From: Chryseobacterium sp. YIM B08800
GTDB lineage: Bacteria; Bacteroidota; Bacteroidia; Flavobacteriales; Weeksellaceae
Length of the DNA: 64,000 nt
NCBI RefSeq assembly: GCF_026163565.1
Contig: NZ_JAPDKN010000040.1
Span: forward strand, 1-64,000
Direction of reading: 5' to 3'
Shown here: piece after piece, positions 57,217 to 61,635 of the stretch
How the letters are laid out: the number at the start of each line of letters is the position of its first letter
How positions within the stretch are numbered: position 1 is the stretch's first letter
The notes under the pieces: model-generated
Told to the model about the DNA's origin: nothing
Seen by the model: the letters and a program-made list of their open reading frames with translations, nothing else
Databases searched by the model: none
Program-made: the position numbers and the translations under genes

Positions 57217-57867
57217 TTAATAAGCTGCGGTGAATCTTTCTCGGATGTGATTGTTTTGCTCCAATTCATCAACCAAAACAACAGCGACATCTTCTACAGA
57301 AAGTACACTTCTCCCCTCTTCATTGAATACAGGATTTTCAAGAGCGGTTCTATATTTTCCGGTTCTGATTCCTGCTGTTCCTGGATGCATTTCGATTGCG
57401 GGGCTGAAAAAAGTCCAGTCTAAAGTTGTATTTTCTTTGATTTTATTTAAATAATCTCTTGCTGCAGTTGCTCCTGGCTTGATGTCTGCCGGAAAATCTG
57501 GTCCATCAACCAATTGATTTCCATCGATAAATAAACTTCCTGCACCACCAACTGTAATAAATCTTTTCACGCCCGATTTTTCAACTGCTTTTTCGATATT
57601 GATTGAACCATTTAGGAAATCGTTATAAAGATTTGGGTTCGTCCAACCCGCATTAAAACTGCTGATTACCGCATCATTTCCTTTCAAAGCTTCGGCCAAA
57701 TCATCTACATTGTTTACATCAACGCTTTTTGCTTTTACGTTTTCAGTTTCGTTTACTTTAGATGCATCTCTTACAATAGCTTCTACTTCAAAACCTCTGT
57801 TTGCTAATTCTTTTACTACTTGTGTTCCCACAAAACCTGTTGCACCGATTACCGCTACTTTTTTCAT
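57217..57867 (-). CDS. NAD(P)-binding NmrA-type oxidoreductase
   Basis: This atypical short-chain dehydrogenase (NmrA/SDR_a5-like) of 216 aa has an N-terminal Rossmann motif, KVAVIGATGFVGTQVVKEL, then AIVRDASKVNETENVKAKSVD, and GVKRFITVGGAGSLF. It lacks the Tyr-x3-Lys pair of classical SDRs. I start at the ATG ending at 57867, since the longer frame overlaps a palindrome at 57886-57910. The gene is 57 bases downstream of the Rrf2 regulator on the same strand, and that palindrome is nearly identical to one before the regulator. It is probably controlled by the Rrf2 protein. Confidence 0.85.
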   Translation of the reverse strand: MKKVAVIGATGFVGTQVVKELANRGFEVEAIVRDASKVNETENVKAKSVDVNNVDDLAEALKGNDAVISSFNAGWTNPNLYNDFLNGSINIEKAVEKSGVKRFITVGGAGSLFIDGNQLVDGPDFPADIKPGATAARDYLNKIKENTTLDWTFFSPAIEMHPGTAGIRTGKYRTALENPVFNEEGRSVLSVEDVAVVLVDELEQNNHIRERFTAAY

Positions 57868-57885
57868 AATATTTTTATTTAAATT

Positions 57886-57910
57886 AATTGTAATAAATTT
57901 TGTTACATTT
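57886..57910. promoter_or_regulatory. Candidate Rrf2 operator, site 2
   Basis: AATTGTAA-N9-TTACATTT, 25 bases, between the Rrf2 gene and the oxidoreductase ATG. Its reverse complement agrees with site 1 (58364-58388) at 23 of 25 positions, including the N9 spacer (CAAAATTTA against CAAAATTAA). It begins 19 bases before the oxidoreductase ATG. Confidence 0.7.
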
Positions 57911-57924
57911 TTGGTCAAAAATTT

Positions 57925-58335
57925 TTAATCGAAATATTCTGTAAATTCTTGTAAAGATTTATCTCCTAAAAATTGACAGACTAACGCATCAGTCTCTGTA
58001 AAAAGTTGTCCTAAATGTGTATTGATATTTTTCCCAATGGGACAAGCCGGGTTAGGATTATTATTTTTCTTACCTAAAACTTCTGAATTTTTCACTGCTG
58101 AATAAATTTCAGAAATACTTATGTTGGAAGCGTCTCTTCCCAACTGGCTTCCACCTTCTTTTCCTTTTCTACTAACAATTAATCCTGCTTCTTTTAAAAC
58201 ACCAATTTCTTTACGAATAATAACAGGATTTACATTAATACTTCCGGCAAGCCAATCAGAAGTAAGCCACTCCTGAGGAAATTTTGACAACAAAGTCATG
58301 ATATGTATCGCCGTAGCAAATCTGGTATTGTTCAT
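57925..58335 (-). CDS. Rrf2-family transcriptional regulator (YwnA-like)
   Basis: This winged-helix regulator of 136 aa has an N-terminal TRFATAIHIMTLLSKFPQEW, a recognition helix in SINVNPVIIRKEIGVLKEAGLI, and the wing VSRKGKEGGSQLGRDA. The usual three-Cys cluster of IscR/NsrR is absent; only Cys98 (NPACPIGK) and Cys120 remain, as in the YwnA-type members, which may sense redox or electrophiles by thiol chemistry. I start at the ATG ending at 58335. Its own promoter overlaps palindrome site 1, so autorepression is likely. Confidence 0.88.
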   Translation of the reverse strand: MNNTRFATAIHIMTLLSKFPQEWLTSDWLAGSINVNPVIIRKEIGVLKEAGLIVSRKGKEGGSQLGRDASNISISEIYSAVKNSEVLGKKNNNPNPACPIGKNINTHLGQLFTETDALVCQFLGDKSLQEFTEYFD

Positions 58336-58345
58336 AATTACTCTG

Positions 58346-58374
58346 CAAAGATACAAATATTTCAATTGTAACAA
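58346..58374 (-). promoter_or_regulatory. Promoter of the Rrf2 gene
   Basis: Minus strand TATCTTTG (58346-58353) with TTG at 58372-58374, 18 bases apart (19 is usual). The TTG lies inside palindrome site 1, so a bound repressor would block it. Confidence 0.6.
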
Positions 58375-58388
58375 AATTAATTACAATT
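58364..58388. promoter_or_regulatory. Candidate Rrf2 operator, site 1
   Basis: AATTGTAA-N9-TTACAATT, a perfect 8-bp inverted repeat with a 9-base spacer. It is centred 41 bases upstream of the Rrf2 start codon and overlaps the upstream promoter box. It is matched 23/25 by the site at 57886-57910. Confidence 0.7.
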
Positions 58389-58402: not shown

Positions 58403-59869
58403 TTATTTTGTTTCAATTGAAATGATTTTCTTTCCTACATTTCCAAAGTAATGATTAACAAGAGGTTCATAAATTTTATATCCATTTTCAACATTCGTAA
58501 AAATGATCAATCCTTTTTTTGTTTTTGGTAAAAGAAAAACAATAGTATTTACTCCTTTATCAGAACCACCATGAGACAATGCAATTTCGTTATTTCCAAG
58601 ATCGTAAATTTCAAATCCTAAACCGAAAAACTTGTCTTTTTTAGTTTCAGTCTGTTTGGTTTTCATTTCTTCGGCAGTTTTTGTTGTCAAAAAATCATTA
58701 TTCAAAACAGCAACTAAAAATTTCCCGTAATCTTCTACAGAAGTTACTAAGTCATCGGCTGCATTTGGAGTTTTATTTTTTACAATTTCATACGGATTTC
58801 CGGAGTTATTGTAACCAAGTACCACTCTCTCAGAATATTTCTTTTCATTCCAGATATAACTTGTATCTTTCATATCTAAAGGCTGAAAAACAAGTTCTTT
58901 TGCTAATTCTTCAAGACTTTTGTGAAATTTATTTTCCAGGGCTTTTCTCAGATACTCAAAACCTTCACCCGAATATTGATATTTTGTTCCCGGATCAAAC
59001 TCAAAACGAAGTTTTTTATCATTATTCATCCATCTCCAATTCGGAAAACCTGTTTGATGGCTTAAAATTAATCTTGTCGTCAATTTTTTATGTCTTGGAT
59101 CTTTAGCAATATCAGGATCAATAAAGTATTTATCTAGTGGCTCATCAAGATTCCATTTACCAAGACTTACCAAGCGTAAAACCGTTATTGCAGTAACTGG
59201 TTTGGTTAAAGAAGCAACATTAAAAAGACTATTGTAAGAAGCCGATGTTTTATCATTTAGTTTTCCATAAACTTTTATTTCTGTCAACTTTCCATTCTCG
59301 ATAATTCCTAAACCTAAAGTTGGGATGTTATTATTTTTCAACAATTGCTCCAAATTATCGGTAAGTTTTGATTGGCCTGGGTCTCCGTGATCATAACTTA
59401 AAATATCACTCATAATCCAATTACCTTCTTTTTTTGTCCAGACTGTTGTAAATTTTGCCTGCCCGCCTAATGCATCTTGTTTATTTTTTTCACGGATAAA
59501 AAACTGATGTTCTCCGGACTGTATCGCACCATACAATTCGCCGTTATTGTATAATGGAAAAACTTCCAAACTACTTTCAATGACCTTACGAATTGGTTTT
59601 TGATTGGGATTTGAACAGATATTTTGTTTTGTTCTTTCGAGAAACAATTTCTTGTCCTGAAAGCCTCCATTATCATGATAGAATTTTAGATTCTCATCTA
59701 CTGATTTTTTAAGATACGTAAGGTCACAATTATTAAAACCTCGTTCAAAAAAAAGACTATCCTGTTTCTTTAATTCTAAAAATAATGGCGAATTTTTATC
59801 GATTTGTGCATTGAAATTTCCGAAGAAAAAGTAGAGAATAAAAATGCTGATCTTAAGTTTTTTAGGCAT
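58403..59869 (-). CDS. Serine hydrolase (beta-lactamase fold) with N-terminal DUF4440 domain
   Basis: It has a signal peptide (KLKISIFILYFFFGNFNAQ) and a SnoaL/DUF4440-like N-terminal domain (roughly residues 25-160, ending TTVWTKKEGNWIMSDILSYD). The class C beta-lactamase-like hydrolase has nucleophile S220 in NVASLTKPV (S-x-x-K), the Tyr in KYQYSGEGFEYL and the third motif HGG in LSHGGSDKG. It is 488 aa. Such proteins are esterases or D-aminopeptidases more often than lactamases. The combination of the two domains is worth noting. Confidence 0.88.
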   Translation of the reverse strand: MPKKLKISIFILYFFFGNFNAQIDKNSPLFLELKKQDSLFFERGFNNCDLTYLKKSVDENLKFYHDNGGFQDKKLFLERTKQNICSNPNQKPIRKVIESSLEVFPLYNNGELYGAIQSGEHQFFIREKNKQDALGGQAKFTTVWTKKEGNWIMSDILSYDHGDPGQSKLTDNLEQLLKNNNIPTLGLGIIENGKLTEIKVYGKLNDKTSASYNSLFNVASLTKPVTAITVLRLVSLGKWNLDEPLDKYFIDPDIAKDPRHKKLTTRLILSHQTGFPNWRWMNNDKKLRFEFDPGTKYQYSGEGFEYLRKALENKFHKSLEELAKELVFQPLDMKDTSYIWNEKKYSERVVLGYNNSGNPYEIVKNKTPNAADDLVTSVEDYGKFLVAVLNNDFLTTKTAEEMKTKQTETKKDKFFGLGFEIYDLGNNEIALSHGGSDKGVNTIVFLLPKTKKGLIIFTNVENGYKIYEPLVNHYFGNVGKKIISIETK

Positions 59870-59955
59870 TGATTAATTTTTGACAAAGATTCAGAATAAA
59901 CTGTTTTTAAATCAAAAAAAGAACCCGACAAAAACCCGACAATCATCTGTCACAT

Positions 59956-60528
59956 TTATATGATGTTGAAATTCAACTTATAACGAAGACTTTGTCTCTT
60001 ATCAATTTCGTAAGTGTTTCTCAAAATAATGTAAACATTTGCCAAAATTAAGAAGGTCATCGTTATCATAACAGATTCCCGACCTAATTTTAAGAGCACA
60101 ATTAACATAAAAATGATAGGCAAAATGATCGCTAAAAATATTTGAAGTGAGATAATCTGTTTTACAATTTGTGATTTATTTTTTGTAAAAAGCATAATCA
60201 ATAATGGCGGCAAAAAATTAGCAATCGGAAGCCATGCCAATGGAAGTGTGGAAAGATTGATTATTTTGACTAAACCGGAGTTAAAAGAATCGTCATTTTC
60301 TGTTACAATAATAGGTTCATCAACTTTAATCTCTTCTTTTATCGTCTCAGAAATCAATAGATCTTTTTCAGAAACATCAAGACTTGCGGCCAACGTTTTT
60401 AGTGTATAACCTTTCGGAATTGTACCTGCTTCAATTCTTTGAATAGTTCTTACCGAAATTCCTGATTTTTCAGCTAATTCTTCCTGAGTAAGATTTTGTC
60501 TCTCTCTTATTTTTCTTAATTCCGACAT
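59956..60528 (-). CDS. XRE-family regulator with C-terminal membrane domain
   Basis: The N-terminal helix-turn-helix is RKIRERQNLTQEELAEKSGISVRTIQRIEAG. After a linker come about four hydrophobic helices (LSTLPLAWLPIANFLPPLLIML, IISLQIFLAIILPIIFMLIVLL, MTFLILANVYIIL), resembling the DUF4870 arrangement. It is 190 aa. A membrane-tethered DNA-binding protein is suggested, perhaps sensing the membrane. It has a TAAATTTG -7-like box at 60548-60555 on the minus strand. Confidence 0.85.
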   Translation of the reverse strand: MSELRKIRERQNLTQEELAEKSGISVRTIQRIEAGTIPKGYTLKTLAASLDVSEKDLLISETIKEEIKVDEPIIVTENDDSFNSGLVKIINLSTLPLAWLPIANFLPPLLIMLFTKNKSQIVKQIISLQIFLAIILPIIFMLIVLLKLGRESVMITMTFLILANVYIILRNTYEIDKRQSLRYKLNFNII

Positions 60529-60581: not shown

Positions 60582-61532
60582 TTATAAGATCAATTTATCT
60601 AAATCTAACAACAAATAATTAATGATCTGATTAATTGTGCGCGTTGCCGACTGCATCTGATTAAGCATTGCCGCACGATTGTGAAGATCATCTGCTCTAT
60701 AAAGACCTCCATCTTTGAAAATAACCGACTGATCGGCTTTATTCTGATCATCATCAAACTGATAATGCAACCATCGTTGTTTCATGCTTGAAATAATAGA
60801 ATGCTGTTCTTTGTTTGAAAATCTTTTTTCGGTGTACATATACCAAATAAAGGGCGGAAAATTGGGAGATTCCAGTCTTTCGTTCCAGATATCTCGCAAT
60901 AAATTTCTTTGATGTATAAATTCAACTTTTTTACCTTTCGGATTTAAGGTTGCCAAACCAAAACCGGCTCCCAAAGCACCTCCGGTAATATCAATTGCAC
61001 TGCTCCAACCCTCATCTTTTACAATTCCGCCTGCAATTGAGGCGACAGCTCCTGCTGCAATTGAGTATAAAATGAGTTTATTATTCCTGGAATCATTTAA
61101 ATTATCAACATAATTTCCAATTTGCGCAACACGTTCACCTTCACAGTCAAATTCTGCAGCAACAGCATCCAATTCAGTCAGTGCAATTGTAATTTTGCTG
61201 TTGATTTTCATCTTTAATTGCAAAACTTTTACCTGAGAATTTAATGATGAATCTTTTTTCAGTTTTACAATTTCATTTACTTCATCTAAATTATCCAAAG
61301 CATTTAAAACCAAAATACTTTGATCGGAAAAAGTACTTTTCAATTGCTGATTAGCTGCAATGATTGAATCTGAATTATAAGAAGGCAATTTATTTTCATA
61401 ATTATACTTGAAAGGTGCCTTACAATAGCTGTCTCTCAAAGTCAAAATATTCTGTTTTATCACCTGATTTTTCTTTGAAACACAGGAAGTCAACAAAATA
61501 AAAACGGCAAAAATCGAGTATAGTTTTTTCAT
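60582..61532 (-). CDS. Lipoprotein of unknown function, 316 aa
   Basis: It has a lipoprotein signal with the lipid Cys at residue 17 (FAVFILLTSCVSKKNQ). The middle is helical, and a Gly/Ala-rich segment (ILYSIAAGAVASIAGGIVKDEGW, then ITGGALGAGFGLATL) may be a membrane or glycine-zipper region. No family was recognised. I start it at the ATG ending at 61532; an upstream Met gives a long hydrophobic extension that would hide the lipobox. It lies between the XRE gene (53-base gap) and an FKBP gene on the same strand. Confidence 0.65.
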   Translation of the reverse strand: MKKLYSIFAVFILLTSCVSKKNQVIKQNILTLRDSYCKAPFKYNYENKLPSYNSDSIIAANQQLKSTFSDQSILVLNALDNLDEVNEIVKLKKDSSLNSQVKVLQLKMKINSKITIALTELDAVAAEFDCEGERVAQIGNYVDNLNDSRNNKLILYSIAAGAVASIAGGIVKDEGWSSAIDITGGALGAGFGLATLNPKGKKVEFIHQRNLLRDIWNERLESPNFPPFIWYMYTEKRFSNKEQHSIISSMKQRWLHYQFDDDQNKADQSVIFKDGGLYRADDLHNRAAMLNQMQSATRTINQIINYLLLDLDKLIL

Positions 61533-61635
61533 TAAAAATTCAATTAAAGGAAATATGAATCTTATTACTAAGATAGCACAAATAAAAAAATCCACCTGAA
61601 AACAGATGAATTTTAATTTATTTTTAAGAACAGGA

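Follow-up and report, generated by a model that had tools for sequence, protein, structure and literature searches.

Two near-identical palindromes flank an Rrf2-family regulator gene in the window (the whole 64,000-nt stretch of Chryseobacterium DNA analysed here), and on comparative grounds they are almost certainly operators of the adjacent Rrf2 protein. This assignment, first proposed by a sequence-only reading of the same DNA, is strongly supported by the conservation of the sites, by the synteny around them and by the identity of their core with the published SifR/HypR core. Overall, the locus likely encodes a thiol-based quinone or electrophile repressor that acts on two operators over itself and a reductase. 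The features are:

57217..57867, minus strand: gene of a YwnB-like NAD(P)-binding reductase, 216 aa (Pfam NAD_binding_10, E 1.2e-30)
57886-57910, no strand: candidate operator 2 (site 2), AATTGTAATAAATTTTGTTACATTT, 1 mismatch, within the 57-nt gap between regulator and reductase
57925..58335, minus strand: gene of the YwnA/SifR-like Rrf2-family regulator, 136 aa, its ATG beginning at 58335, with Cys98 in NNNPNPACPIG
58346-58353, minus strand: -7 promoter element TATCTTTG, 18 nt from the -33 TTTG
58364-58388, no strand: candidate operator 1 (site 1), AATTGTAACAAAATTAATTACAATT, 0 mismatches to AATTGTAA-N9-TTACAATT, overlapping the -33 box of the regulator promoter
58372-58375, minus strand: -33 promoter element TTTG, inside operator 1, assigned from sequence
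58403-59869: serine-hydrolase gene with a Beta-lactamase family Pfam domain, between operator 1 and the gene at 60582-61595
59956-60528: HTH gene, also between operator 1 and the gene at 60582-61595

The two palindromes and their conservation

Both palindromes were recovered at the positions that the sequence-only reading had assigned, both carry a TGTAA-N9-TTACA core, and site 1 agrees with the reverse complement of site 2 at 23 of 25 positions, as had been claimed. Across the whole 4.24 Mb genome, the two sites are the only places within 0-1 mismatch of the 25-mer; a reversed control pattern likewise matches at 2 places with ≤1 mismatch. When up to 3 mismatches are allowed, 263 places are found in the genome versus 193 for the control, and 7 in the window versus 3.3 expected, a number that 2 of 100 shuffles reached; the weak matches with 2-3 mismatches, in window and genome alike, were discarded because they exceed their controls just modestly. 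Since the bare count is matched by the control, the significance of the two sites comes from their flanking position and their conservation. Further, the exact 19-bp core occurs at 21 places in the genome (11 for the control), 15 of which were scored with a matrix built from 222 genus sites, the window's two included; the flanking pair scores 36.3 and 31.9 bits and, apart from these and a site before a nitroreductase gene described below, the remaining 12 scored loci reach ≤2.2 bits each.

Within the genus, the regulator was found in 146 of 148 genomes (E ≤ 1e-15), in one of them as a broken copy, and 111 loci out of the 146 were compared. The reductase gene lies downstream of the regulator on the same strand in all 111. 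The core is present before the regulator in every locus (exact in 109, with 1 mismatch in the other 2) and exact in the gap ahead of the reductase in 111/111, so that both places hold a core at ≤1 mismatch throughout. The sequence-only reading had named scattered copies of the motif, or its non-conservation at orthologous loci, as evidence against a regulon operator; with both examined, its proposal was not refuted, the core being kept in 111/111 loci. Moreover, the spacer is constrained too: the consensus approximates AATTGTAAYAAAWTTTRTTACAATT, effectively a 12-1-12 inverted repeat. Mean information inside the sites is 1.69 and 1.78 bits versus 1.01/1.02 and 1.25/1.01 bits in the 20-nt flanks, with a slight bias in the sites' favour from picking the best match per region. 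In the two genus genomes that lack the regulator (G033 and G134), a search at E ≤ 1e-10 found the reductase missing too, and three regulator-bearing genomes run alongside were all positive.

The broken copy, in G062 (C1:1394434-1394840), matches the regulator in two pieces, one with an internal TAG, and its locus retains both operator cores and the reductase. In several genus relatives (e.g. L022-L027), the DNA directly upstream of operator 1 appears to encode the C-terminus of the protein whose gene lies at 60582-61595 in the window (ending DLDKLIL). Upstream of operator 1, the window's clade seems to have acquired extra DNA (span 58403-60528), unless its relatives lost that stretch.

Promoter overlap and the role of site 2

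The TTG promoter box that the sequence-only reading had placed across site 1 corresponds to the -33 TTTG at 58372-58375 on the minus strand. Together with its -7 element, it fits the Bacteroidota -33/-7 consensus, given as TTTG/TANNTTTG in PMC6847099. A TTTG-N15-21-TAnnTTTG arrangement whose TTTG starts in site 1 occurs in 97 of the 111 genus loci, and TAnnTTTG lies ≤60 nt from the regulator start codon in 110/111, versus about 6% of shuffled sequences. Because TTTG is itself part of the operator consensus, promoter and operator signals are indistinguishable at that spot. Further, the same source describes the -33 motif of Flavobacterium johnsoniae as far less evident than the -7 motif (PMC6847099), which makes the -33 overlap weaker evidence for repression than it appears. 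In the gap ahead of the reductase, a -7 box of the TTTG/TAnnTTTG promoter was found in 0/111 genus loci. With a promoter-like -33 element in site 1 and no -7 box in the gap, site 1 is positioned to block the promoter.

We propose that the reduced Rrf2 dimer would bind the 12-1-12 inverted repeat with its TGTAA-N9-TTACA core. On site 1, the dimer would cover the -33 element, block RNA polymerase and repress its own gene; because the gap lacks a -7 box, the reductase is probably repressed from site 1 as well, as the second gene of a two-gene operon. Site 2, inside the operon, could strengthen repression of the reductase in one of three ways: as a road-block, together with site 1 at a distance of about 480 bp, or on an unrecognised promoter. 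From centre to centre, the sites are 471-485 bp apart, with 482 the value in 49 of the 111 genus loci, and since this distance is mostly fixed by gene length, it neither backs nor denies phase-conserved looping.

Site 2 could instead act in RNA, as a hairpin between the two genes of a shared message, leaving site 1 as the sole operator. Its arms are able to pair in RNA, and the missing promoter box in all 111 gaps would suit such a role. Folding calculations rule out a stable hairpin: the gap folds at just -0.5 kcal/mol, and 194 of 200 shuffles fold as well or better. The TGTAA and TTACA arms are exact in 111/111 loci, so that no compensatory change backs RNA pairing, and site 1, with the same word, lies entirely upstream of the -7 box. 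We regard the hairpin explanation as extremely improbable.

The regulator, the reductase and the likely signal

The regulator contains an Rrf2 domain (Pfam PF02082, E 9.2e-26, 91 bits versus a cut-off of 30), and its closest PDB match is Bacillus subtilis YwnA (1xd7, E 1.6e-24). By translation, Cys98 and Cys120 are its only cysteines. Cys98 belongs to a PNPxC motif present in all 8 sequences compared, at the start of helix 5 as read from the YwnA alignment; the His of the HxxPNPxC motif of SifR is Asn in the window's protein. Cys98 is found in 110/110 aligned orthologues and Cys120 in 5/110. The sequence-only reading was thus right that the three-Cys cluster is absent and that Cys98 is kept, and Cys120 falls away as a conserved feature. 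An iron-sulphur regulator of the IscR/NsrR type was rejected, as the three ligand cysteines are absent (Cys98 alone is conserved) and the IscR and NsrR models score far below cut-off. Assignment to HypR was rejected also: the HypR model (NCBIfam equivalog NF041852) is the regulator's best NCBIfam match, though at 59.8 bits versus a cut-off of 180, and there is no Cys33-Cys99 pair. By these comparisons, the regulator is a relative of YwnA and SifR with one conserved cysteine, Cys98.

The reductase matches pneumococcal YwnB (PDB 4r01, E 2.9e-34); a higher-scoring PDB match (3dhn, E 1.3e-57) is deposited merely as an NAD-dependent epimerase/dehydratase. The 4R01 structure is that of SpYwnB, for which PMC9218516 reports NAD(P)H quinone reductase activity. 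Homology to 4r01, combined with a core site before the gene, makes the reductase a candidate YwnB-type target.

In PMC9218516, SifR, the monothiol quinone sensor of Streptococcus pneumoniae, binds TGTAA-N9-TTACA, a site identified through the HypR core, and leaves DNA on quinone exposure through Cys102. The source sets a one-cysteine pattern, shared by SifR and YwnA, against the Cys33-Cys99 disulfide of HypR, describes the SifR sensor class from Firmicutes and a few Actinobacteria, and states the function of YwnA as unknown (PMC9218516). SifR resembles the window's system in its operator core, its single Cys in PNPxC and its YwnB-type target, and differs in its phylum and in that the S. pneumoniae ywnB is not adjacent to the regulator gene (PMC9218516). 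In the window, unlike with SifR, the reductase gene adjoins the regulator gene and an operator lies on each side of the latter; the genus, also unlike SifR, has sites before frnE or nitroreductase genes. Of the SifR targets, which also include the catE, yhdA and piu types, the comparison covered the YwnB type. The ywnA-ywnB pair of B. subtilis (1XD7), which the sequence-only reading had named as a similar pair, is borne out by PMC9218516; compared by gene order and structure match, it too has adjacent Rrf2 and reductase genes.

By this likeness, quinones and similar electrophiles would modify Cys98, which takes the place of SifR Cys102, and release the repressor from DNA; the putative NAD(P)H-dependent reductase would then reduce the quinone. 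The signal is likely an electrophile, a quinone or one like it, with Cys98 as its point of attack. The idea that a thiol sensor controls a quinone-type reductase, also put forward from the sequence alone, gains support from the YwnA/YwnB homology and from the linkage of the operator to other quinone-reductase families.

The main rival keeps the same operators and regulator and replaces the quinone signal with an oxidant signal or disulfide stress, from HOCl, allicin or diamide, in the manner of the HOCl sensor HypR of Staphylococcus aureus. HypR is an Rrf2 protein too, likewise has a conserved Cys around position 99 and, by PMC9218516, has the same operator core; its model also gives the best, if sub-threshold, NCBIfam match. 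According to PMC6943732, allicin strongly induces ywnA and ywnB in B. subtilis, YwnA is closely homologous to HypR, and YwnB is a MerA-like flavin disulfide reductase. The last statement is at odds with PMC9218516. Together they imply that the range of inducers may extend beyond quinones. Moreover, the FrnE-like and nitroreductase genes in the regulon (see below) fit a general thiol/electrophile stress. Against this, HypR works through its Cys33/99 switch, whereas the window's regulator has no Cys near position 33 and Cys120 is found in just 5/110 orthologues; the linked enzymes, further, resemble YwnB-, QorB- and Qor-type proteins. HypR also differs in being encoded in a hypR-merA operon. We judge the oxidant signal unlikely and retain a quinone or similar electrophile as the preferred one.

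Further candidate targets and distribution across Bacteroidota

An asymmetric pattern derived from the genus sites, TGTAACAAAWWWTATTACA, matches 122 of 148 genus genomes; a control has 0 matches. Among the matches listed are 31, from 31 different genomes, that are not at the regulator locus; every one of them falls 41-236 nt upstream of an frnE-family gene, and 22 were confirmed from retrieved loci. The encoded protein is a FrnE/DsbA-like thiol oxidoreductase (PF01323; PDB 5cnw FrnE, E 2.8e-51). Around the matches in three genomes (G096, G104 and G114; loci L212-L214), none of the frnE-locus genes was found nearby. An exact core lies within about 300 nt upstream of 70 of the 111 frnE genes examined (138 genomes have frnE), a tally that combines the 31 pattern-found sites, a set of 30 loci in which 9 have a site (5 already counted in the 31) and 55 additional genomes, 35 of which have one; minus the 31 pattern-found sites, it is 39/80. 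The genome of the window has no site upstream of its own frnE, which was dismissed as a target there. In 15 of the 22 retrieved frnE-site loci, as in L153 and L154, frnE and the operator are downstream of genes on the same strand that were named by eye as MFS-type exporter and alpha/beta-hydrolase-like.

One genome without regulator and reductase, G033, still carries an exact core before frnE, so that the site outlives the regulator, barring a recent loss or an assembly gap. This case would suit a different regulator to which the palindromes belong and which acts at the locus by chance. On the other side, the core is linked to the Rrf2 regulator across Bacteroidota families, it matches the operator that PMC9218516 gives for the regulator's own family, and the one further Rrf2 protein of this genome that exceeds the Pfam threshold (L381) lacks a core in its retrieved stretch. 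Ownership by another regulator is very improbable in our view, and the adjacent Rrf2 protein remains the one to which the sites are assigned.

In the window's own genome, a third site scores 11.9 bits, below the training minimum of 20.8 and next-best of the scored cores after the flanking pair:

L163 1498-1522 = contig C56 107561-107585: nitroreductase site, intergenic, about 100 nt before the nitroreductase gene

Of 30 loci with orthologues of this nitroreductase, 8, own genome included, carry the site between -100 and -102, and 1 of 25 further orthologues has an exact core upstream, for a total of 9/55, in the window's clade. Across the first 8 sites, the arms are constant and the spacer is variable; conservation also extends into a segment directly downstream, which means that other constraints act there. 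In the 8 nitroreductase-site genomes with frnE examined, no frnE site was found. The own-genome nitroreductase site probably belongs to the same regulon. Taken together, these sites suggest that many genus genomes have a small, lineage-dependent regulon that extends beyond the flanking pair.

The arrangement extends beyond the genus. In a draw of 395 genomes across the phylum, 38 have a relative of the regulator at E ≤ 1e-15, 7 of them Chryseobacterium; the other 31 genomes gave 32 loci, of which 27 have an exact core ≤60 nt upstream of the regulator, 3 have one with 1 mismatch (L193, L194, L205) and 2 (L199, L203) have no core there. Linkage to the reductase holds for 26 of these 32 loci, and 24 of the 26 have a core at ≤1 mismatch in the gap, the exceptions being L195 and L207. 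A GTDB set, consisting of the best 80 of 486 loci, covers Chryseobacterium, Epilithonimonas, Sphingobacterium, Pedobacter, Proteiniphilum and others, many of its loci coming from the same species as the 111-locus genus set. Among these best 80 of 486, 78 show an exact core before the regulator and the other 2 differ from it at one position; wherever the reductase is present (75 loci), the gap holds an exact core as well.

The remaining 5 of these best 80 (L372, L373, L374, L377 and L380) lack the reductase; in its position they have an NmrA-type gene of 282-285 aa, with an exact core in the gap in 5/5. These replacements, in Sphingobacterium and Proteiniphilum, are QorB/YtfG-like: the L374 protein matches YtfG (PDB 2zcu, E 5.2e-96), the L373 and L380 proteins are 88% and 87% identical to it, and those of L372 and L377 have their leading Pfam and NCBIfam matches in common with it. 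We take the YtfG of 2zcu to be that of E. coli, presumably the quinone oxidoreductase QorB. Further, L205, a distant second homologue in one genome, whose core has 1 mismatch, adjoins a gene for a zeta-crystallin-type quinone reductase.

The system is of a known kind, and Bacteroidota are new for it as far as the literature search reached: titles and abstract openings, in mainly open-access literature, described no Rrf2 quinone regulon in Chryseobacterium, Flavobacterium, Elizabethkingia or Bacteroidetes. The newer part is the lineage-specific targets. A broader generalisation is tentative and rather doubtful: one quinone-sensing repressor and its operator word would have been kept across Bacteroidota while the controlled enzymes were swapped by lineage (YwnB-like, QorB-like, FrnE-like, nitroreductase), and a second, intra-operon operator without a visible promoter would repress via a road-block or a loop of about 480 bp. 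The locus offers a concrete candidate electrophile-sensing regulon for Bacteroidota, with regulator, operator, promoter and targets together; its operator word, identical across phyla, is usable for mapping such regulons, and the target swaps suggest which enzymes can stand in for one another under a quinone sensor.

One entry labelled as a gammaproteobacterium, Glaciecola amylolytica (CP034120.1, L375), contains a complete unit of the Bacteroidota type, both operator cores included, and its neighbouring proteins are Bacteroidota-like as judged by eye; either a mislabelled record or a transfer of the unit may be the cause. Finally, the regulator homologues of L199 and L201 have PDKTC in place of PNPxC and a flavoprotein gene downstream (PPOX-type by NCBIfam in L201), with a core site ahead of the flavoprotein gene, which is possibly another target swap.
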